The notes beneath the pieces are model-generated. The model was not told the origin of the DNA and ran no database searches. It was given only the letters and a program-made list of their open reading frames with translations. Below are positions 5,372 to 52,215 of a stretch of 64,000 nt of DNA, one piece after another. Numbering within the stretch: position 1 is the first letter of the stretch; each line of letters opens with the position of its first letter. A program made the position numbers and the translations under genes. The DNA lies in the NCBI RefSeq assembly GCF_002736105.1, contig NZ_CP024123.1, positions 426,001 to 490,000 on the forward strand, given 5' to 3'. This DNA is from Solibacillus sp. R5-41 (GTDB taxonomy: Bacteria > Bacillota > Bacilli > Bacillales_A > Planococcaceae).

Positions 5372-6151
5372 TTAAAGAACGGTTACTTTTTTTGACGCAT
5401 GAACAAGGGATTCAATCGTCGTCCAATCCTGCTGCTCCAAAGCGGCGACAATTTGACTGCCAACAATGACCCCATCTGCAATAGCACTAAAATTTTTGAC
5501 ATGTTCTGGAGTAGAAATGCCAAACCCGGCCAATATAGGAACCGCACTATGTTGCTTCAATACTTTAAAATGAGCTTGTAAATTTTCTGCAAACTCCGCT
5601 CGAATCCCTGTTGTTCCGTTTACTGTAACCGCATAAATAAAGCCTTCACTCGCCGCTGCTAATTTTTTTACACGCTCAAGAGGGCTCGTTAATGAAACAA
5701 GTTGTACTAATGCGATGCCATGCGTTTTTAATGCTGGATGTAGGAGTGCACTTTCCTCTAAGGGCATATCAGGAACAATCAAACCGCGAATTCCAGCAGC
5801 ATAAGCATCGCGTGCAAAAGCTTCAATGCCATAAGCTAATATTGGATTTAAGTACGTCATCGCAACGAGTGGCACCGAAATGTCATCTGCAAAGCGAGAA
5901 AGTTCCGCTAGTACATTGCGTAACGTTACCCCGTGAGCAAGGGCGCGTTCTCCAGCTTTTTCAATCGTTGGTCCGTCTGCAACAGGATCGGTAAAAGGAA
6001 TGCCAATTTCAATCGCGGAAACGCCAAGCTGCTGCAATTTTAAAATCGTTGGCTTTAACGTTTCAAGTCCACCATCACCAGCCATTATATATGGAATGAA
6101 TGCCTTATCTCCGCGTGCAAGTATTTGCTCAATTGTTTGCTGTAAAATCAT
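5372..6151 (-). CDS. trpA: Tryptophan synthase alpha chain
   Basis: A TIM-barrel lyase of 259 residues that splits indole-3-glycerol phosphate into indole and glyceraldehyde 3-phosphate, passing indole to TrpB. The catalytic Glu is in [11 protein letters not shown] and the catalytic Asp in DPVADGP; the phosphate-binding GFGIS and the VIVGSQIV strand are intact. It overlaps trpB by four bases (ATGA), which implies translational coupling, and is the last biosynthetic gene of the operon. No hairpin terminator follows directly. Confidence 0.95.
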
Positions 6152-7335
6152 TGCTCAACGTCTCCTAACTTTTCCATTAATGTGTGCACATCTTTATCCC
6201 CTCGACCTGATAAGCAAACGACAATAATTTCGTCTACTGGTCGTACTTTCGCAAATTCAGCCGCATAATAAATGGCATGGGCACTTTCAATCGCGGGTAA
6301 AATTCCTTCCGTTTCACAAAGGAGCCTTACACCTCGTAATGCCTGTTCATCTGTGACAGAAGGATACTTAGCACGATCGATTTCATGTAAATAGCAATGC
6401 TCTGGTCCAACACCTGGATAATCGAGCCCAGCAGAAATGGAATGCGCCTCTTGAATGAAGCCATTTTCATCCTGTAATAAATACATAAATGCCCCGTGTA
6501 GTACGCCGGTTTTGCCAACATGAATGGCTGCCGCATGCTGATTCGTGTCAACGCCCTCGCCAGCTGCCTCAATGCCATAAAGGGCAACATCCGTATCTTC
6601 AATAAATGGATAAAACATGCCGATTGCGTTACTTCCTCCACCAATACATGCAAATACTGCATCTGGTAAACGGTTTTCCTGCTCAATTATTTGCACGCGC
6701 GTTTCATCTCCAATAATACGTTGGAAATCTCGAACGATTGTAGGGAAGGGATGCGGGCCGAGTGCAGAGCCTAAAATATAATGTGTATCCTCGATATGTG
6801 TAACCCAGTGACGCAATGCTTCATTCACCGCATCTTTTAATGTAGCAGAACCTTTTTCCACAGCAACTACTTTTGTGCCGAGCAACTCCATACGGAAAAC
6901 ATTGAGCTGCTGGCGACGAACATCTTCAGCGCCCATATAGACGATGCATTCCATATCGAGCAGGGAACACGCAGTAGCCGTTGCAACTCCATGCTGACCA
7001 GCGCCAGTTTCTGCAACAATTTTCTTTTTTCCCATACGTTTAGCGAGAAGTGCTTGCCCAATGGCGTTATTAATTTTATGGGCGCCCGTATGATTTAAAT
7101 CTTCACGCTTTAAATAAATTTTCGCACCACCCATTTTTTTTGTTAAGCGTTCAGCAAAATAAAGTGGTGTTTCGCGTCCGACATATTGCTTTAAATAATA
7201 AGCAAGCTCCTTCTGAAAATCAGGATCTTGTTTTGCTTCCTCATATGCGTCCTCTAATTCCTGTAATGGTGTCATCAATGTTTCAGGAACGAATTGCCCC
7301 CCAAATTGTCCGAAACGTCCTTTTGTTGTTGTCAT
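6148..7335 (-). CDS. trpB: Tryptophan synthase beta chain
   Basis: A PLP enzyme of 395 residues that condenses indole with serine. The N-terminal [13 protein letters not shown] segment, the PLP lysine in [13 protein letters not shown], the catalytic ETGAGQHG loop, the phosphate-binding GGGSNA and the C-terminal CLSGRGDKD are all present, so this looks fully functional and of the TrpB1 type that pairs with TrpA. It overlaps trpA and trpF by four bases each. Confidence 0.96.
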
Positions 7336-7949
7336 AAAATTAATTCTCCTTTCGCTTTTTCAATAAATGTCTTAATGGCGTCGATATTTTTTTGTCCATC
7401 CACTTCAACTCCACTTGAAACATCCACTGCAAAGGGCTCGACAAGTGTAATCGCAAGCGCAACATTTTCTGCATTTAAACCACCAGCTAAAATCACTTTT
7501 TCCAGCGGGATTTTTACATCATCCAATAACGTCCAGTCAAATGAATGACCGCTTCCTCCTCGGTAATCCGTACTAGGTGCATCAAATAGATAGAAATCCA
7601 CATCATATTTTGCCGCTTGTACTACATCCTCTTTTGAACGAATGGAAAATGCCTTTATGGATGGCAGTCCGATTGCTGCTATCATTTCAGGCGTTTCATC
7701 TCCGTGATATTGAATATAATCAAGGCCCACATTTCGAGCGATTCGTGCAATTATTTCAGGCGCTTCATTAACAAACACTCCCACTTTTTTTACCTCTTCC
7801 GGGATCATTGCGGCTAAATTGATTGTTTCCTCTACCGATATACGTCTTTTACTAGGCGCAAACATGAATCCGATAAAATCAGCGCCTGCCTGTATTGCCG
7901 CATCTACATGTTTGGTCTTTTTTAATCCGCAAATTTTTACTTTTGTCAT
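7332..7949 (-). CDS. trpF: Phosphoribosylanthranilate isomerase
   Basis: A TIM-barrel isomerase of 205 residues in the third step from anthranilate. The catalytic Cys is in VKICGLKK near the N-terminus, QYHGDE follows strand 3, and the catalytic Asp with the phosphate site is in VDVSSGVE near the C-terminus. Length is normal. Four-base overlaps with trpC and trpB place it in the translationally coupled chain of the operon. Confidence 0.95.
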
Positions 7950-8740
7950 CGATTTTCGCCATCCTTTGTCATTATGTCGATTTGTAGCGATTGAAGTGAT
8001 TTTTTGACGTCACCGCTGCGCATTAATGATTCCCCAACTAAAACACCTCTTGCACCAGCTTTCGCCACGAATTGTGCATCTTCCACATCCCAAATGCCGC
8101 TTTCACTTATGAAGGCAATATCGGAGTGGGGGAGTTGCTCGGCGATTTCCTTTGTATGCAGTAAATTGACTTCAAAAGTATTTAAATTGCGGTTATTTAC
8201 ACCGACAATTTTCGCCCCAATTTTAAGTGCGCGCTGCAGTTCTTCCACATTATGTACCTCTACAAGCACCTCTAAATTTTGGGCAGTGGCATAAGCATGT
8301 AACGAGTGTAATTGGTCATCAGTTAGCGCAGCCACAATTAGTAAAATAACGGATGCCCCCGCAGCTTTTGCGTAATCAATTTGGACCGTATCAATCATAA
8401 AATCCTTGCATAATACCGGAACATTAACGGCGTTCGCAACCGCGTTTAAATCCTCGAATGAACCTTTAAAAAATGCTTGCTCTGTTAAAACGGAAATACA
8501 TGCCGCGCCAGCTTCTTCATACTGCAGTGCCTGTGTAACAGGATCAATATGTGTCGCGATATCCCCTTTAGAAGGGGAGGCGCGCTTCATTTCAGCGATA
8601 ATTTGTACTGTTTTTGTGTACTGCAATGTTTCGTATAAAGAGGGGCGCTGTTTTTGAACTGTTTGGAAGCTGGGCTCTTTTGCAAGTAAAGCAGGTAATT
8701 CCATTTTTTTTTGGTTAATAATTTTCGTTAAAATTGTCAT
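7946..8740 (-). CDS. trpC: Indole-3-glycerol phosphate synthase
   Basis: A TIM-barrel enzyme of 264 residues that closes the indole ring from CdRP. Visible motifs are the catalytic Lys of IIAEMKRASPSKG, CKDFMID, GVNNRNLNTF, the ISESGIW loop and GVLVGESLM. It is a separate protein, not fused to TrpF as in enterobacteria. It overlaps trpD and trpF by four bases. Confidence 0.95.
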   Translation of the reverse strand: MTILTKIINQKKMELPALLAKEPSFQTVQKQRPSLYETLQYTKTVQIIAEMKRASPSKGDIATHIDPVTQALQYEEAGAACISVLTEQAFFKGSFEDLNAVANAVNVPVLCKDFMIDTVQIDYAKAAGASVILLIVAALTDDQLHSLHAYATAQNLEVLVEVHNVEELQRALKIGAKIVGVNNRNLNTFEVNLLHTKEIAEQLPHSDIAFISESGIWDVEDAQFVAKAGARGVLVGESLMRSGDVKKSLQSLQIDIMTKDGENR

Positions 8741-9774
8741 TTTGATGCTCCCTCCTTTTCGACCTGCTCACTATAAGCAATGACATTGTGCAGCTTTTGC
8801 AGTGCGCGTCCTGAAAAAATGCTATCCTTCGCCATTTCAATCCCTTCTTTCATCGTTTCAGCTAATCCGTAAGCAAAAAATCCGATGCCCGCATTTAAAA
8901 TAACCGTGTCGAAATATACACTTTGCTTGCCCGCTAATAGCTCGCGCATAATGTGCGCATTTTCCTGTGGACTGCCTCCGCGAATGGCCGATAATGGTTG
9001 CGCGGTTAATTCGACATCCTCAGCTCGCAATTTGAATGGAATAACATCTCCATAATCGAGTAAAACAAATGTATTTTCACCGTCCAATGAGGCCTCATCC
9101 ATCCCTTGCGCACCCGAAACAACAACAGCCCGTTCGCGTCCAAGCATATGAAGAACTTCTGCATAATCAGTTGTGAAATTAGGGCGATTAATGCCAACAA
9201 ATTGAGTTTTTAATGGTACTGGATTCGTTAGTGGTCCTACTAAGTTAAAAATGGTTGGCTTGCCGATTGCCTGTCGAATTTCCCCGATTCGTTTCAGCTT
9301 AGGGTGCATATTCGGTGCATGTAAAAAGGCAATGCCGTATTCCTTCAGTAAATCGGTTGTTTGCGCTGTATCGGGAATGAGTTTAATTCCAAGTGCCTCT
9401 AGAACATCCGAGCTACCTGATGAACTAGATACTTTCCGGTTGCCATGCTTCGCGACTAAAATGCCACCGCCCGCGAGTACAAAAGCTGCTGTTGTACTAA
9501 TATTGAAGCTATGCAAGCCGTCGCCACCCGTCCCGCAGTTATCCATATAAATTCCTTCAGGCGCATTCATTTTGACTGCATGGGATTGCATAACTGATGC
9601 CAACCCCGCCACTTCATGGACCGTTTCTCCTTTGTTACTCATTGCAATAAGAAAGTCGGCGATTTCTTGTTTCGCAGTTTGCTCATTAAAAATATAGTGT
9701 GCGGCCTGCACCATTTCTTCAAAAACGAGATGTTCAGATCGTTTAAGTTGGTTAATAAACGGCTGTAATGACAT
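8737..9774 (-). CDS. trpD: Anthranilate phosphoribosyltransferase
   Basis: The enzyme joins anthranilate to PRPP. Its 345 residues carry the PRPP-binding GTGGDG motif, the KHGNRKVSSSSGSSDVLEALG loop, NLVGPLTNP and the metal-binding acidic pair in DEASLDGE. It is a stand-alone TrpD without a fused glutaminase. Two starts are possible: the ATG at 9783 overlaps the trpE stop as ATGA, but the ATG at 9774 has AAAGGA eight bases upstream and is more likely. With trpC, F, B and A it makes an apparently intact route from anthranilate to tryptophan. Confidence 0.94.
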   Translation of the reverse strand: MSLQPFINQLKRSEHLVFEEMVQAAHYIFNEQTAKQEIADFLIAMSNKGETVHEVAGLASVMQSHAVKMNAPEGIYMDNCGTGGDGLHSFNISTTAAFVLAGGGILVAKHGNRKVSSSSGSSDVLEALGIKLIPDTAQTTDLLKEYGIAFLHAPNMHPKLKRIGEIRQAIGKPTIFNLVGPLTNPVPLKTQFVGINRPNFTTDYAEVLHMLGRERAVVVSGAQGMDEASLDGENTFVLLDYGDVIPFKLRAEDVELTAQPLSAIRGGSPQENAHIMRELLAGKQSVYFDTVILNAGIGFFAYGLAETMKEGIEMAKDSIFSGRALQKLHNVIAYSEQVEKEGASK

Positions 9775-9779
9775 ATTCC

Positions 9780-10778
9780 TCATCCTTTCATAAGTGCGTG
9801 AAACGTAAGGTCAGACGCATCATTTGTCGTTTGGATATACGCTTTGTCGTCAATAATCGTCAAAGTTTTTACAGGTGTTGTAAAATCGACCTGACCATTA
9901 AATCCGATATAACCAATTAGCCCATCTTGTGGAATCAGCTGCTTGACAGCATCAATGGCGTGAAAAGCGGGGGAGAGTAACCCCGTCTGCAATGCGTTTT
10001 GTTTCTTTATGGAATTGGTTTGACATAATGTGTCGAGATTTGCCTCTTCATTCGTCGTAGAAAGCACGCCATCTCGAATTTGTAAAAAGCTTTTTGGAGA
10101 AGTCCCAATGACCGTGCATTCATCAAATTCGATGTAATACATATAAGCGGCCGCCTCCTGTACACGTAAATTTCGGTATAAGGCAAACACATCACCAGAA
10201 AATTGTGCGGTTGCTAGTTTCTGGGATTCTTGCTGTAATGAATGAAGTGTATAATACGTGTCACCTAAAGTGGAGTCGGTGAACAGTTCATCGATTAGTT
10301 GATCAATATTTGGTTCCACTTGTTCGGCTTCAATATTTGTATGGAAAACAGCAATTTCATCAGTCAAATGGTCAAAAATAATGAGCGTGTCATACACATG
10401 AAACTGGAGCGTCGGCACTGTTGACTGTAATGTTGCAGGAAGGGCATGAATATAACCAATGCCACCGCCCGTTAATGGATATTCCGTTTGGCTTGTAACA
10501 CGTGGCATCACTTGTTTCAATAACGAAATGAGTTCACCTTCATAGTGATAGTGTTTATTGGTTAAATGCGAGAAATCCTGTAAATGTGTATCATTTCCGC
10601 TATAGGTTTTACGAGGATCGACGCCAATAAAGGAATAGCGCCCATTGCCTTCATTTTTTGTGGAACTCTCAAGTAAAAATTTCCGCTTTCCTTGTAGTCG
10701 CAAAAAAATAGAAATAGGGGTTAATAAATCGCCATTCACCTTTTTCATAGATGTACGAAATTTTTGCTTTAATGTCAT
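9780..10778 (-). CDS. trpE: Degenerate anthranilate synthase component I, catalytic core missing
   Basis: A 332-residue open frame at the head of the trp operon, well short of the 450-500 residues usual for TrpE. The N-terminal regulatory fold is recognisable: the tryptophan-site motif appears as KFLLESS, followed by GRYSFIG, and YMYYIEF and GTSPKSFLQ mark the entry to the chorismate domain. After that the conserved core is absent: no PIAGTRPRG, no ERAEHxMLVDLGRND, no SGAPK. The C-terminal strands return as IGYIGFNGQVDF. It therefore cannot be a normal anthranilate synthase. The frame has no internal stop, an AAAGGAG ribosome site and coupling to trpD. The start at 10778 is chosen because the upstream 25 codons lie in repeat sequence. 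It could be a pseudogene in progress or a protein kept for another purpose. Confidence 0.8.
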   Translation of the reverse strand: MTLKQKFRTSMKKVNGDLLTPISIFLRLQGKRKFLLESSTKNEGNGRYSFIGVDPRKTYSGNDTHLQDFSHLTNKHYHYEGELISLLKQVMPRVTSQTEYPLTGGGIGYIHALPATLQSTVPTLQFHVYDTLIIFDHLTDEIAVFHTNIEAEQVEPNIDQLIDELFTDSTLGDTYYTLHSLQQESQKLATAQFSGDVFALYRNLRVQEAAAYMYYIEFDECTVIGTSPKSFLQIRDGVLSTTNEEANLDTLCQTNSIKKQNALQTGLLSPAFHAIDAVKQLIPQDGLIGYIGFNGQVDFTTPVKTLTIIDDKAYIQTTNDASDLTFHALMKG

Positions 10779-10925: not shown

Positions 10926-10967
10926 AAAAAAGCCCTCAACAAAAGGAAAAATCCTTTTGTTGAGGGC
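10922..10967 (-). terminator. T-box-controlled terminator of the trp operon
   Basis: On the minus strand a 15-bp stem (GCCCTCAACAAAAGG and its complement) with a short AT loop is followed by nine T residues. It directly follows the T-box sequence and is the termination arm of the leader switch. Confidence 0.9.
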
Positions 10968-11240
10968 GATAAATACCGCGTTGCCACCTCGATTGAAGCA
11001 AAACTACTACTTCCACTCATTCCTGATAACGGCAGGGAAACCGTCCACTAACTAACGCTAGTAGCTTTCATAAGGCCCATTCACATTTTTATTTTGACGC
11101 ATTTTCACCAGCCATGCGCTCTCTAAGCAAAATCAGAAGAACTTCACCTTGCACTAAATAATGCACTGTCATGTCCTTACTGAGGTAGATAAGAAAGTTC
11201 CTTTTTCTATCCACCAAAAAATGCTACTCTTCTTATTCAT
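10922..11240 (-). promoter_or_regulatory. T-box leader with tryptophan (TGG) specifier
   Basis: Read on the minus strand, this leader has the AGAAGAGTAGCA start of stem I, the AGAGAG...GGCTGGTG motif of its distal part (around 11110-11125), a specifier region GAATGGGCC in which TGG is at 11077-11079, and the T-box GAGGTGGCAACGCGG at 10976-10990. A strong terminator stem follows. Uncharged tRNA-Trp would stabilise the antiterminator and let transcription enter the trp genes. The specifier fits the downstream genes. Stem I limits are approximate. Confidence 0.92.
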
Positions 11241-11437: not shown

Positions 11438-11923
11438 TTAGATTAATTTTTTGAAGTTTAATCGTTTATTCAGTGCGTACATAATCGGTGCACCTACAGC
11501 AAGGACAACGAACTCACCGAATGCGACAAAAGCCCATGTTTCCCAGAATGGTAAGTCCAACACAAGATTTAATTGCGCCGCGATAATAAACATTGTAAAT
11601 GTAAATAACAATGTATTAATAATTAGGCGTGCCCAAATATTTTTCACGAACTTACAAATGACAATGAAAATACCTAATGTAATAATCGTGTGGCCAACAC
11701 CAAAAATTAAATCCATTGGTCCAACTGAGGACATCAAGAAGTTAGAAATAAATACGCCCAATACCACACCAACCATATAGCGTGGGTTAAAAGCGATTAA
11801 ATGGTTAAACATTTCGGCGATACGAAACTGTACTTGACCGAAACTAATTGGAGCAACAAGCATCGTTACTGCAATGTAAAGAGCAGCAATAATGGCACTC
11901 ATAGCTAAAAATTTTACTTTCAT
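11438..11923 (-). CDS. queT: QueT family queuosine-precursor transporter, ECF S component
   Basis: A 161-residue, very hydrophobic protein with about five or six predicted helices. The FRIAEMFNHLIAFNPRYMVGV segment after the first helix is the typical QueT signature. As a substrate-binding S component it would deliver a queuosine precursor (preQ0, preQ1 or queuine) through the shared energy-coupling module, which is not in this window. The call is strongly supported by the preQ1-I riboswitch directly in front of the gene. It is a single-gene unit; AGGAGG precedes the ATG. Confidence 0.9.
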   Translation of the reverse strand: MKVKFLAMSAIIAALYIAVTMLVAPISFGQVQFRIAEMFNHLIAFNPRYMVGVVLGVFISNFLMSSVGPMDLIFGVGHTIITLGIFIVICKFVKNIWARLIINTLLFTFTMFIIAAQLNLVLDLPFWETWAFVAFGEFVVLAVGAPIMYALNKRLNFKKLI

Positions 11924-11932
11924 AATTCAATT

Positions 11933-11971
11933 CCTCCTAGTTTTTTTACGTGGGATGGTTACGAACCACGA
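11933..11971 (-). promoter_or_regulatory. PreQ1-I riboswitch overlapping the queT ribosome site
   Basis: On the minus strand, stem CGTGG/CCACG encloses TTCGTAACCATC and is followed by the A-rich tail AAAAAAACTA, the arrangement of class I preQ1 aptamers. The tail runs straight into AGGAGG, the queT Shine-Dalgarno, so ligand binding would hide the ribosome site and control translation. Confidence 0.88.
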
Positions 11972-11991
11972 TGCTTTTTGCATAAGGTAAT

Positions 11992-12190: not shown

Positions 12191-12212
12191 ACACTTCATC
12201 CAGATGAAGTGT
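12191..12212 (+). promoter_or_regulatory. Perfect 10-bp inverted repeat at the transporter transcript start
   Basis: ACACTTCATC and GATGAAGTGT are separated by CA. From the promoter at 12151-12179 the repeat would lie at about +5 to +26. There is no T run, so it is not a terminator; it could be a repressor operator or a 5' stabilising hairpin. Confidence 0.55.
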
Positions 12213-12252
12213 GACACATAAAATAGAGAAAGAAATAGGGGGATTATTGTTA

Positions 12253-13269
12253 ATGACTAAAAAGTTAATGAGGCTTTCGTTTTTAGTATTTGGGCTTCTT
12301 TTATTATTGGCAGCATGTGGAGGGGAAGAACAAGATTCAACATCTAAAAATGCGGATAATATTGGATCAGCCAATGCAGCCAAAACAGAGGACGGGAAAA
12401 CATTTAAAATTGGGACAACTCAAATTGTTGAACATCCATCATTAGATGCAGCAAAAGCAGGATTCAAAAAAGCAATTGAAGATGCTGGTATTAAAGCAGA
12501 GTATATCGATAAATCTGCAAGCAACGATAACACGGCCAATTTAACGATTGCGCAACAGCTAGTAAGTGAAAATGTAGATTTAATTTTTGCCAACTCAACA
12601 CCATCAGCCCAAGCCGTAAAAAGTGTAACGACTGAAATTCCAATTCTGTTCACATCTGTAACAGACGCGGTTGGCGCAGAATTAATTGATTCAATGGAAG
12701 CACCAGGTGGCAACGTGACAGGTACAATTGATTTACATCCAGAAACTATGCCAAAAACAATTGCATTCTTAAAAGAATTAGGTGTAAAAAATATCGGTAT
12801 GGTTTACAACGCAGGGGAGCAAAACTCAGTAGCGCAAATTACGACAGTAAAAGAATTAGCAGCGAAAGAGGGCTTAACAATTGTTGAAGCGCCTGCATCT
12901 ACTCCGGCAGAAGTGCAACAAGCTGCGGAATCTTTACTTGGTAAAGTAGAGGCGTTTTATATTATTACAGATAACACGGTAGTATCGGCTTTAGAATCAG
13001 TAATCGGTGTTGCAAACGCAAACAAATTGCCATTAATCGTAGGCGAGCTTGATTCAGTAGCGCGTGGCGGTTTAGCAGCGTACGGATTTGAATACTTTGA
13101 TATTGGTTATGAAGCAGGTCAAATGGCGGCACAAATCTTATTAGAAGGTAAAACACCAGCTGAAATTCCAGCGGCATACCCAGCTAATTTAAAACTATTA
13201 ATTAACGAAAAGACTGCGGAAACAATCGGTTTAGAAATTAAGCCTGAGTGGGAAGCAGAAGCACAGTAA
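12253..13269 (+). CDS. ABC transporter substrate-binding lipoprotein, TrpX type
   Basis: A 338-residue extracytoplasmic lipoprotein with a basic N-terminus, a hydrophobic segment and the lipobox LLAACG, whose Cys is near residue 20. The mature part belongs to the COG2984 family (IGTTQIVEHPSLDAAKAGF, then ANSTPSAQAV and SVARGGLAAYG), the binding proteins of TrpXYZ-like importers. In streptococci this family is linked to tryptophan uptake by T-box leaders; here the inference rests on family plus position one gene away from the trp operon. The ATG at 12253 starts the signal peptide; an upstream GTG at 12211 would add 14 residues with no role. The permease and ATPase follow. Confidence 0.8.
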   Translation: MTKKLMRLSFLVFGLLLLLAACGGEEQDSTSKNADNIGSANAAKTEDGKTFKIGTTQIVEHPSLDAAKAGFKKAIEDAGIKAEYIDKSASNDNTANLTIAQQLVSENVDLIFANSTPSAQAVKSVTTEIPILFTSVTDAVGAELIDSMEAPGGNVTGTIDLHPETMPKTIAFLKELGVKNIGMVYNAGEQNSVAQITTVKELAAKEGLTIVEAPASTPAEVQQAAESLLGKVEAFYIITDNTVVSALESVIGVANANKLPLIVGELDSVARGGLAAYGFEYFDIGYEAGQMAAQILLEGKTPAEIPAAYPANLKLLINEKTAETIGLEIKPEWEAEAQ

Positions 13270-13358
13270 TACCGATTCGCGCTAAGATCTACTACTTAGC
13301 GCGAATCCTCATTTTAAAACAACTTAAACAATAAAAAACAGTTAGGAGATGGTTCAAA

Positions 13359-14399
13359 ATGTTTACAGCTTTGTTTGGTTCAGTTGAGCAAGGGATCATC
13401 TATGCAATTATGGCGCTCGGGGTGTATTTAACATTCCGAGTGTTGGATTTTCCGGATTTAACAGTCGATGGTAGCTTTGTGACGGGGGCTGGTACAGCAG
13501 CAATGATGATTGTGCTTGGTTACAACCCAATTTTAGCGACAATCGTAGCAACCGTTGCTGGATTTATTGCAGGATGTATGACAGGTTTATTGCACACAAA
13601 GGGTAAAATCAATCCGTTACTATCTGGGATTTTAATGATGATTGCCTTGTATTCCATCAACCTCCGTATTATGGGAATAACATCTGACACAGGGGTAACA
13701 CGTCCAAATATTCCATTATTAAATACGGAAACAGTGTTCACGATGTTTAACGACTTCTGGTCAAAACTAGGAATTGATAATGTACTTTCAAATGCAGTAA
13801 CAGCAATGGGAGGCAAATCACTTCCATCGTCATGGGGCATTTTAATTTTCATGATGGTCGTAACAATTGTCATCAAATTCGTAATGGATCGATTCTTAAA
13901 AACAGAAATTGGGCTTGCTATTCGAGCGACAGGGGACAATAAACGAATGATTCGAAGCTTTTCTGCCAACACAGATTCTTTAATCATTTTAGGTCTCGGC
14001 TTATCAAACGGGATGGTGGCATTATCTGGTGCGTTAATTGCCCAGTATACAAAGTTTGCGGATATCGGCCTTGGCATAGGGATGATTGTTGTCGGATTAG
14101 CCTCGGTTATTATAGGTGAAGCCATTTTTGGTACGAAATCAATCGTACGCACAACATTTGCAGTTATTGCGGGTGCGGTTATTTACCGTTTAATTTATGC
14201 TCTTGCGCTGCGTGTTGGCTGGTTAGACACGGGGGATATGAAATTAATTACCGCAATTATCGTCATTTTAGCATTAATTATTCCACAAGTTTTAAATAAG
14301 CAACAAGAGAAGAAACGTAAGGCAAAGCGTTTAGCGGCGCGGGTAGCAGCTCAAAAGGCGACGATAAATGTAGAGCAAGGGGGAAATGGTCTTGCTTAA
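13359..14399 (+). CDS. ABC transporter permease, TrpY type
   Basis: A 346-residue inner-membrane protein of COG4120, related to branched-chain permeases, with roughly eight or nine hydrophobic helices. Typical segments are LTFRVLDFPDLTVDGSF near residue 25 and AIRATGDNKRMIRSF around residue 190, the cytoplasmic loop that contacts the ATPase. The C-terminal tail is strongly basic (KQQEKKRKAKR). It lies 89 bp after the binding protein and overlaps the ATPase by 14 bases. Substrate is inferred to be tryptophan or a related amino acid from family and location. Confidence 0.78.
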   Translation: MFTALFGSVEQGIIYAIMALGVYLTFRVLDFPDLTVDGSFVTGAGTAAMMIVLGYNPILATIVATVAGFIAGCMTGLLHTKGKINPLLSGILMMIALYSINLRIMGITSDTGVTRPNIPLLNTETVFTMFNDFWSKLGIDNVLSNAVTAMGGKSLPSSWGILIFMMVVTIVIKFVMDRFLKTEIGLAIRATGDNKRMIRSFSANTDSLIILGLGLSNGMVALSGALIAQYTKFADIGLGIGMIVVGLASVIIGEAIFGTKSIVRTTFAVIAGAVIYRLIYALALRVGWLDTGDMKLITAIIVILALIIPQVLNKQQEKKRKAKRLAARVAAQKATINVEQGGNGLA

Positions 14400-15186
14400 A
14401 CTAGATGGCATCAACAAAATATTTAACGAAGGTACACCGGATGAAAAAAATGCATTAGACAATATTAATTTGTATTTAGCAGCGGGTGATTTTGTTACAA
14501 TTATCGGCAGTAATGGTGCAGGGAAGTCAACGATGATGAATATGATTTCTGGTGCATTGACCCCGGATTTTGGATCGGTTGTCATTGATGGCAATGATTT
14601 AACGCGTATTCCTGAGCATAAACGCGCGGTGCATATCGGACGCGTTTTCCAGGATCCAATGGCGGGTACGGCACCCTCTATGACGATTGAGGAAAACTTG
14701 GCAATCGCGTATTCACGAAATGCAAAACGTGGATTACGTGGTGGTGTAGATAAAAAGCGTCGGGAATTTTTCAAGCAATCATTAGAAAAGCTTCACCTTA
14801 ATTTGGAAAACCGTTTAACTGCTAAGGTCGGATTACTATCAGGTGGTGAGCGCCAAGCGTTAAGCTTGTTAATGGCGACGTTTACAAAACCAGCCATTTT
14901 ATTATTAGATGAACATACAGCAGCCCTTGATCCGTCACGTGCAGAGCTCATTACAAAGCTAACAAAGGTGCTTGTTGAGGAAAGTAGCTTAACGACGCTT
15001 ATGGTAACGCACAATATGCAGCAGGCGCTGGATTTAGGAAATCGCCTCATTATGATGGACAAAGGTCAAATTATTTTGGAAGTCGGTGCGGAACGAAAGT
15101 CTGCATTAACCATTCCAGATTTAATGGCTGAATTTGAACAAATTCGCGGAGAAAAAATGAATTCAGACCGCGCATTACTAGGATGA
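14386..15186 (+). CDS. ABC transporter ATP-binding protein, TrpZ type
   Basis: A 266-residue ATPase of COG1101. Walker A is GSNGAGKST, the signature is LSGGERQ, Walker B is ILLLDEHTAALD with the DEHTAALDP form typical of this family, and the switch His is in VTHN. The start ATG at 14386, behind AAGGGGG, lies within the permease gene, so the two are translationally coupled. It energises the importer formed with the two preceding genes. A strong shared terminator follows. Confidence 0.85.
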   Translation: MVLLKLDGINKIFNEGTPDEKNALDNINLYLAAGDFVTIIGSNGAGKSTMMNMISGALTPDFGSVVIDGNDLTRIPEHKRAVHIGRVFQDPMAGTAPSMTIEENLAIAYSRNAKRGLRGGVDKKRREFFKQSLEKLHLNLENRLTAKVGLLSGGERQALSLLMATFTKPAILLLDEHTAALDPSRAELITKLTKVLVEESSLTTLMVTHNMQQALDLGNRLIMMDKGQIILEVGAERKSALTIPDLMAEFEQIRGEKMNSDRALLG

Positions 15187-22004: not shown

Positions 22005-22198
22005 CTTGCTTCAGCAGAAGTAGGGGAACTCAGGCTAAAGGTAGGGAAAAAGGCTAAATCCGTCACGTCCAGTGACAACGCCTAATTGACCAACATCATT
22101 TGACCCAAAGACCCCGGCGGATGTCACAAATTTTTAGAGGATTTTTTCGAGCATGCTTGAAAAAATCTGGACAAAAATTAGCCGAGGTGTAATTGATT
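22003..22198 (-). repeat. Dispersed multi-hairpin repeat, copy C (inverted)
   Basis: On the minus strand the copy has a decayed first hairpin, the T/A-flanked AGCATGCT hairpin, TTTGTGACATCCGCCGGGG and the terminal CTACTTCTGCTGAAGCAAGTTAA. Between core and end it carries about 60 bp that other copies lack, including a GTCAC/GTGAC hairpin nested in AGGC/GCCT. It starts at the ung stop codon and ends 37 bp before the next gene. Confidence 0.75.
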
Positions 22199-51188: not shown

Positions 51189-52029
51189 GATTAATAAATC
51201 CTCCTACTGTTATTTTGAGTGTTTAGATACGTTTATTTTTCCATATATTGTATAGTTTTGGTAGATATGTGAATGTGTTTACTACTTGAAATGCAATGCG
51301 ATTAGTTAATATATGTGCCATTTACCAATAAACCTTAGGATATCCAAAGGTATTTCAAACCTCATACCCCCATGTAATCTGGCGCCACTTTATATTTGTC
51401 GAATGAAATTCACAAGCATATGATTCTAAGTTATATAGCAGTTTTTGATCGTGTTTAATCTATTCAAATCTCTTGTGAAACTAAAAGGAGTTTTGTACAA
51501 TATTGAACGCATTTTCTTTATTTTTAATAGAGCTAAATAATCATCTTTTTTAATTTTCAACATGTCGCAAATACGTTCTAACTATTTGACGGGCTAGGAA
51601 CTTAAAAAGTTTAAATTAAATATAAATAAAATGGCAGACCGAATAATTATAACGGGGCACTATATATATAATGCTTTAGTACTACCAATTTCGGAAGCAG
51701 TTGGGCTTTCACAAAGCACACAGCTGAGTCGTGCTGTTTTGTGCCAATAAAGCTTTGCGTCGCTTATACTTAGCCAACCTAAAAATTTTAGCACTTCTAA
51801 AAATCTATAAGTCGAAAACTTACATAAAAATAGCACCCAACCGAAATGGAAATAAAAGAAATACTGGATTTTAATTAATATATCTGAAAACTCTCGCTTG
51901 TCTACATACAAACAATCATTTTTCCGCTACAATAGAATTGCCTATTAATTAAATAAGAAATGTGAAGGTTCTTATATGTGAGTTAGAAAAACATATTTTA
52001 TGTATTCAATAAAAAAGGTTTATCAAATT
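51189..52029. other. Intergenic region, no gene supported
   Basis: The 841 bp between the deacetylase start and the cobalamin riboswitch are AT-rich. One 83-codon reading frame on the minus strand (51660-51911) has no ribosome site and no recognisable family. I see no strong terminator or promoter. It could hold remnants of lost genes. Confidence 0.4.
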
Positions 52030-52034
52030 GACTA

Positions 52035-52215
52035 ATAAGGATTAAAAGGGAAATCGGTTACATTCCGATGCGGTCCCGCCACTGTAAATGCGAGTTTGTT
52101 GGAAAAAGCCACTGAAGAAATTTGGGAAGGTGTCAACAAGTGTTATAATGCATAAGCCAGGAGACCTGCCTTTACATTGCCAATAGTAAACCTGCGTGGA
52201 ACGGGAGTGGCTTAT
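52035..52215 (+). promoter_or_regulatory. Cobalamin (B12) riboswitch
   Basis: The leader shows the usual order: GGGAAATCGGT at the 5' side, GATGCGGTCCCGCCACTG, the region AGCCAGGAGACCTGCC (the B12 box, about 52154-52170), and a closing segment CGTGGAACGGGAGTGGC. With the terminator at 52250-52277 it would switch off transcription of the uptake genes when adenosylcobalamin is bound. Boundaries are approximate. Confidence 0.93.

Follow-up and report, generated by a model that had tools for sequence, protein, structure and literature searches.

Regulatory pseudoenzymes are already known from histidine synthesis, where HisZ, the partner of HisG-S, descended from histidyl-tRNA synthetase. HisZ is reported to enhance a phosphoribosyltransferase (the short-form HisG-S) and to mediate end-product inhibition (PMC9734150). 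In the tryptophan pathway, TrpA (TrpEa) of Chlamydia trachomatis is catalytically inactive yet needed for TrpB function (PMC3937554), and in enteric bacteria the phosphoribosyltransferase activity of TrpD is sensitive to tryptophan only in complex with anthranilate synthase, i.e. in the TrpE-TrpGD complex (PMC10464499). In Serratia TrpE, residues G328, T329, H398, and G485 are associated with chorismate, and S40, P291, M293, V453, and Y455 with tryptophan (PMC10464499).

The first gene of the trp operon of Solibacillus sp. R5-41 encodes a protein, here called TrpE1, that resembles TrpE (TIGR00564; structures 1I7S, with bound tryptophan, and 5KCK) in ancestry, N-terminal domain, operon position, and most of the tryptophan pocket, but the dead TrpE1 proteins have no linked trpG, and the shortest of them lack as much as about 45% of their length. 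Like HisZ, TrpE1 is a non-catalytic, enzyme-derived protein of an amino acid pathway; unlike HisZ, it has another fold and belongs to another pathway, and the regulation of TrpD by TrpE1 is a proposal. As with chlamydial TrpA, a dead trp-pathway subunit appears to be kept for a partner, which is putative for TrpE1, whereas the chlamydial protein is full length, belongs to another gene and lineage, and has a known partner. The enteric TrpE is active whereas TrpE1 is dead, and a complex that would place a phosphoribosyltransferase under tryptophan control is likewise putative for TrpE1. No relevant report of a TrpE-derived regulatory pseudoenzyme or of a truncated Lysinibacillus trpE was found in the open-access papers searched.

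The window, i.e. the whole stretch of 64,000 nucleotides that was analysed, corresponds to positions 426,001-490,000 of a one-contig genome of 4.28 Mb. The operon (trpE1-D-C-F-B-A, 10778-5372, minus strand) is preceded by a T-box leader and terminator, and its features are as follows, in window positions.

10959-11163, minus strand: T-box leader of the trp operon with a UGG (Trp) specifier (RNA model score and reading of the specifier)
10926-10974, minus strand: T-box terminator, a long inverted repeat with a stretch of T after it (direct sequence reading)
9780-10778, minus strand: trpE1, gene 1 of the trp operon, encoding a catalytically dead TrpE paralogue of 332 aa (profile searches, alignments, and AlphaFold)
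10665-10682, minus strand: codons for KFLLES, residues 33-38, in which Glu37 and Ser38 correspond to E39 and S40 of the tryptophan pocket (sequence and alignments)
10134-10148, minus strand: codons for AYMYY, residues 211-215, corresponding to the pocket strand P291-Y292-M293-F294 with Ala replacing P291 (sequence and alignments)
9894-9917, minus strand: codons for IGYIGFNG, residues 288-295, corresponding to the pocket strand V453-G460 (sequence and alignments)
9780-9783, minus strand: stop/start overlap of 4 bases that couples trpE1 and trpD (open reading frames and intergenic distances)
8737-9783, minus strand: trpD, intact, encoding anthranilate phosphoribosyltransferase (348 aa)
7946-8740, minus strand: trpC, intact
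7332-7949, minus strand: trpF, intact
6148-7335, minus strand: trpB, intact (395 aa)
5372-6151, minus strand: trpA, intact (259 aa)

The ATG at 10778 yields the 332-aa product, and an alternative in-frame ATG upstream would yield 357 aa. An earlier note on this DNA, made from the sequence alone, had described trpD, C, F, B, and A as apparently intact genes joined by four-base overlaps behind a complete T-box, and this was confirmed at all five junctions and by a T-box score of 94.8 bits against a cut-off of 93. Just upstream of the operon lies a gene for the transporter QueT together with a PreQ1 riboswitch (11438-11975, minus strand), and PreQ1 riboswitches also occur near trp operons in four other loci (L009, L109, L110, and L111). 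Divergent from the operon is an ABC transporter (12211-15186, plus strand; an ABC_sub_bind lipoprotein, a permease, and an ATPase) of the type often named TrpXYZ, and a search for a T-box in front of this transporter found none. Elsewhere in the window are a cobalamin riboswitch (51999-52186, plus strand) and a Bacillaceae-1 RNA (22038-22103, plus strand).

The loss of the catalytic core, as claimed in the earlier note for the 332-residue protein, was borne out. Pfam Anth_synt_I_N matched TrpE1 over nearly the whole model (E=1.9e-24), and the match to Chorismate_bind was restricted to model positions 34-84 of 257. Against TIGR00564 (trpE, NCBIfam; cut-off 517.7 bits), TrpE1 scored only 119.8 bits, whereas TrpE2, the intact TrpE of this genome with 464 aa, scored 579.8. 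TrpE1 is 132 residues shorter than TrpE2 (the earlier note had put the loss at about 120-150 residues), and the gaps in the alignment lie mainly at TrpE2 positions 200-225, 289-325, 340-353, 377-402, and 444-458. The motifs said to be present (KFLLESS, GRYSFIG, YMYYIEF, and IGYIGFNGQ) were all found, and those said to be missing (GTRPRG, EHxML..DLGRND, and SGAPK) are indeed absent. A ligand table was compiled for 100 TrpE proteins in Serratia TrpE numbering; TrpE1 of the window retains none of the 10 chorismate or Mg ligands scored, namely G328, T329, H398, and G485 together with E361, Y449, R469, G483, E498, and K502, the latter six of which are further ligand positions.

The tryptophan pocket fared differently. 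The claim that its motifs are kept calls for a small correction: S40 (Ser38 in window numbering), M293 (Met213), and Y455 (the last residue of Ile288-Gly289-Tyr290, which equals 453-455) are retained, P291 is Ala (Ala211), and V453 is Ile. Other pocket equivalents are Glu37 (E39), Tyr212 (Y292), Gly225 (305), Gly289 (454), and Gly295 (460). Among the 38 dead TrpE1 proteins identified (see below), the equivalents of E39, S40, G305, G454, and G460 show no variation, 37 proteins retain Y292, and Y455 is either Y or F; E361, H398, R469, G485, and E498 are gone from most or all of them, and most also have a degenerate NPSP turn. Only 30 of the 136 columns conserved in active TrpE survive in the dead proteins; the N-domain accounts for 21 of these, and the 9 in the C-lobe include Y292, G305, G454, and G460. 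In addition, R56, T58, and N148 are fixed in the dead TrpE1 proteins and absent from active and intermediate TrpE, a pattern of sequence conservation that suggests a newly constrained surface of the N-domain.

Orthologues of TrpE1 were found directly before trpD in all 16 Solibacillus genomes, all of which also contain an intact TrpE2; these orthologues are 325-334 aa long, and their identity to the window protein is 62-86%. Six genera have dead TrpE1 proteins, with lengths of 257-457 aa: Solibacillus, Lysinibacillus (435-457 aa), Caryophanon (341-379 aa), Metasolibacillus (257 to about 272 aa), the L. odysseyi group (383-396 aa), and genus g15 (457 aa, full length). They are present with open frames in all 38 genomes of this six-genus clade and are accompanied by TrpE2 in 37, the exception being a 90%-complete assembly of 170 contigs. 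In a pattern scan of 84,980 genomes, none of the 79 loci retained showed a dead TrpE1 in front of trpD in an organism outside the family. Genera g5, g11, and g10 contain TrpE2-TrpG and no TrpE1. In the sister genus g17, one genome (G087) contains TrpE2 and trpD and lacks the operon TrpE1, which is kept by two others (G072 and G099); a fourth (G031) is probably a tryptophan auxotroph, because it gave neither a TrpD match nor a match to the TrpE N-domain. Two record titles look doubtful: L175, titled 'Arthrobacter beigongshangensis', contains a Sporosarcina-like trp operon, and L190, titled 'Bacillus subtilis DE0224', contains a lone TrpE resembling that of Lederbergia.

The genome search for a second trpE or pabB that had been recommended identified three full-length chorismate-binding proteins: TrpE2 at 2.87 Mb, PabB at 88 kb, where its gene is accompanied by pabA and pabC, and, at 3.36 Mb, a protein resembling isochorismate synthase. 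TrpE2 is intact (GTKPRG, EHKMLVDLGRND, and SGAPK), with trpG directly after it, and the pair lies 2.4 Mb away from the trp operon under its own T-box, which has the same UGG specifier as that of the operon; each of 20 trpE2 loci examined in various members of the family proved to have a T-box. This pair explains the supply of anthranilate, so that the suggestion that another TrpE covers this step was supported and a loss of anthranilate synthesis need not be assumed. The separate trpE2-trpG pair is likely to be the anthranilate synthase of Lysinibacillus and Solibacillus. TrpE2 retains a complete tryptophan site of its own, and the loss of this site was not seen in the ligand table; feedback has therefore not obviously been outsourced to TrpE1.

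Nei-Gojobori dN/dS ratios between Solibacillus species, with ranges taken from pairs with dS >0.2, were 0.05-0.14 for TrpE1 (0.04-0.10 for its N-domain), 0.01-0.06 for TrpD, and 0.03-0.08 for TrpE2; a very close pair (dS 0.05) gave 0.23 for TrpE1. AlphaFold folded the 332-aa TrpE1 (pLDDT 89.4, pTM 0.90) and a 257-aa TrpE1 (pLDDT 88.4, pTM 0.87) with high confidence, and the best structural matches to the models were TrpE and PabB. The possibility, raised in the earlier note, that the shortened protein is retained thus gained support from the presence of orthologues throughout Solibacillus and in five other genera, the low dN/dS, and the confident fold. An assembly collapse, which that note had named as a possible refutation if the core were found in sister strains, was rejected, because every congener has the same short form. 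Two features of HisZ-type pseudoenzymes (a kind of protein, with no common homology), descent from an enzyme without its catalytic residues and purifying selection beside a pathway enzyme, were found in TrpE1; binding of the end product and a complex that alters the activity of a partner enzyme would be two more. TrpE1 is almost certainly a selected pseudoenzyme and neither a decaying gene nor an assembly error.

The stages of this change are distributed among relatives. In a phylogenetic tree, TrpE2 forms one clade (support 100) and the altered TrpE1 another (support 98). Paenisporosarcina and other canonical relatives have trpE-trpG-trpD, with trpG filling an E-to-D interval of 555-815 nt. 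In Sporosarcina and two further genera, trpG is gone from the operon and DLGRND and SGAPK are altered, with all direct ligands kept; the altered motifs of the Sporosarcina loci (L066-L075, L152, L156, L165, L172, and L179; trpG absent after trpE) include EVSKKE and TGSPK. The Sporosarcina protein is presumably still active, because it is the sole TrpE in all five genomes checked with both family models, and it may be an anthranilate synthase that depends on ammonia or has a different partner. In genus g4 (L077, L081, and L085), trpG lies between trpE and trpD and reads GISLGQ versus G(V/I)CLGHQ in active glutamine amidotransferases; its catalytic cysteine is seemingly a serine, and the protein may be inactive. 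TrpE proteins with altered DLGRND or SGAPK (DLSRQE, DLSCED, SGDPK, and SGSPK) and neither trpG nor trpD found after them also occur in Lederbergia-type (L190, L192, L193, L200, L203, L204, L206, L216, L219, and L220) and Siminovitchia-type (L191, L195, L211, L215, and L221) loci, and that of L204 scores above the TrpE cut-off. The loss of the RND helix seems to accompany the loss of a linked trpG.

The trpE1-trpD gap is 13-65 nt with ligand-intact TrpE1 and -32 to +8 in all genomes with dead TrpE1, whereas the trpD-trpC gap is about -4 throughout, in genera with dead and with ligand-intact TrpE1 alike. The Sporosarcina locus L156 also has a -4 trpE1-trpD junction, so the link between the tight gap and dead TrpE1 is not absolute. 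The core deletions spare the N-terminal domain and, in the C-lobe, the pair of strands needed to complete the pocket. Those of Caryophanon are not the ones seen in the group made up of the L. odysseyi group, Metasolibacillus, and Solibacillus, which indicates that trimming occurred at least twice; the same core remains in Caryophanon and the Solibacillus/Metasolibacillus line (N-domain, YR..R..Y.YY..G.., and GYIGFNG). Independent deletions in each genus were unsupported: the L. odysseyi group, Metasolibacillus, and Solibacillus have common deletion boundaries near TrpE2 positions 285-353, and g15 was not separable from their clade (p-AU 0.57), so only two independent trimmings are claimed, one in Caryophanon and one in the other three.

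Because the catalytic site has been lost, the gene is nevertheless held by selection with most of its tryptophan pocket, and an intact second copy exists elsewhere, the product of the head gene is probably a regulatory partner and not an enzyme. In the mechanism proposed, TrpE1, which has given up every chorismate and Mg ligand examined while TrpE2-TrpG is equipped for anthranilate synthesis, would have been kept because it still binds L-tryptophan in the former feedback pocket, where the N-terminal domain meets the two surviving C-lobe strands, and, as a regulatory subunit, would pass this signal to another pathway enzyme. The favoured recipient would be TrpD, the product of the next, translationally coupled gene. 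Points against this mechanism are the Ala in place of P291, the decay of the NPSP turn, and the tryptophan site that TrpE2 still has. TrpE1 has a somewhat better than even chance of still binding tryptophan, and its being a regulatory subunit of some trp enzyme is about evenly balanced. The overall reading, a TrpE-derived pseudoenzyme kept as a tryptophan-binding regulatory subunit with TrpD as the favoured partner, likewise stands near the midpoint between acceptance and doubt.

Among the alternatives, a regulatory or assembly role in which TrpE1 pairs with the live TrpE2 and modulates TrpE2-TrpG is improbable. TrpE enzymes are dimers of heterodimers, TrpE1 and TrpE2 belong to the same fold family, dead TrpE1 was never seen without TrpE2 in well-assembled genomes, and a T-box precedes both units, the specifier in the window genome being UGG in each case. 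However, TrpE2 has its own tryptophan site and no residues that are fixed in the genera with dead TrpE1 and absent elsewhere; genera g5, g11, and g10 use TrpE2-TrpG without any TrpE1, and the DLGRND helix was lost from TrpE1 along with the neighbouring trpG. A tryptophan-independent scaffold or stabiliser, e.g. for TrpD or a cluster of trp enzymes, in which the pocket merely joins the N-domain to the C-lobe, is unlikely to a similar degree. The equivalent pocket of Escherichia coli PabB contains a structural, non-inhibitory tryptophan, and the pocket residues of TrpE1 may be held only for folding; the newly fixed R56, T58, and N148 lie outside the pocket, and chlamydial TrpA sets a precedent, but the invariance of Glu39 and Ser40 in all 38 proteins despite the decay of most of the C-lobe argues against such a role.

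The stepwise shortening and ligand loss across genera and the stop/start overlap with trpD would also fit a pseudogene in decay, or a remnant whose sole use is to bring ribosomes to trpD. This is very unlikely in view of dN/dS values far below 1, the open frames, the residues invariant specifically in dead proteins, and the high-confidence fold; moreover, the g17 genome without TrpE1 (G087) has an intact trpD, so an upstream TrpE1 is unnecessary for trpD expression. That the 332-aa protein has kept anthranilate synthase activity or acts as a different chorismate enzyme is scarcely conceivable, since only its homology to TrpE speaks for this, whereas none of the 10 ligands remains and the C-lobe parts that bear most of them are gone.

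Within the preferred reading of a tryptophan-binding regulatory subunit, TrpD is a tentative choice of partner, less likely than not to be the right one but favoured because of gene adjacency, a coupling that tightened around the catalytic loss, and the enteric precedent. In a first distance-matrix test of co-evolution, TrpD came out ahead of TrpE2/TrpG (partial r 0.56), but an operon control removed this signal (TrpE1-TrpD 0.14, TrpE1-TrpC 0.32, and TrpE1-TrpF 0.43), and co-evolution thus lends TrpD no particular support over its operon neighbours. Fixed-difference counts in TrpD, TrpC, TrpF, TrpE2, and TrpG were too small to single out a partner. Leu at position 90 of TrpD (PRPP loop) was discarded as a mark of partnership, for which it is no evidence because it is shared by a genome of genus g5 without TrpE1 (G019). 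The most specific form of the proposal, in which TrpE1 is a tryptophan-sensing, HisZ-like allosteric subunit of TrpD that arose once and was trimmed at least twice towards a receptor core of about 257 residues, is possible but less likely than not.

Close relatives thus contain intact trpE-trpG-trpD, ligand-complete TrpE1 without linked trpG, full-length dead TrpE1, and forms of 257 residues, and because every stage is present, the way in which an enzyme gives rise to a regulatory subunit would be directly testable in this family. For Lysinibacillus and Solibacillus, annotation of the operon's first gene as trpE does not tell which protein is the anthranilate synthase.
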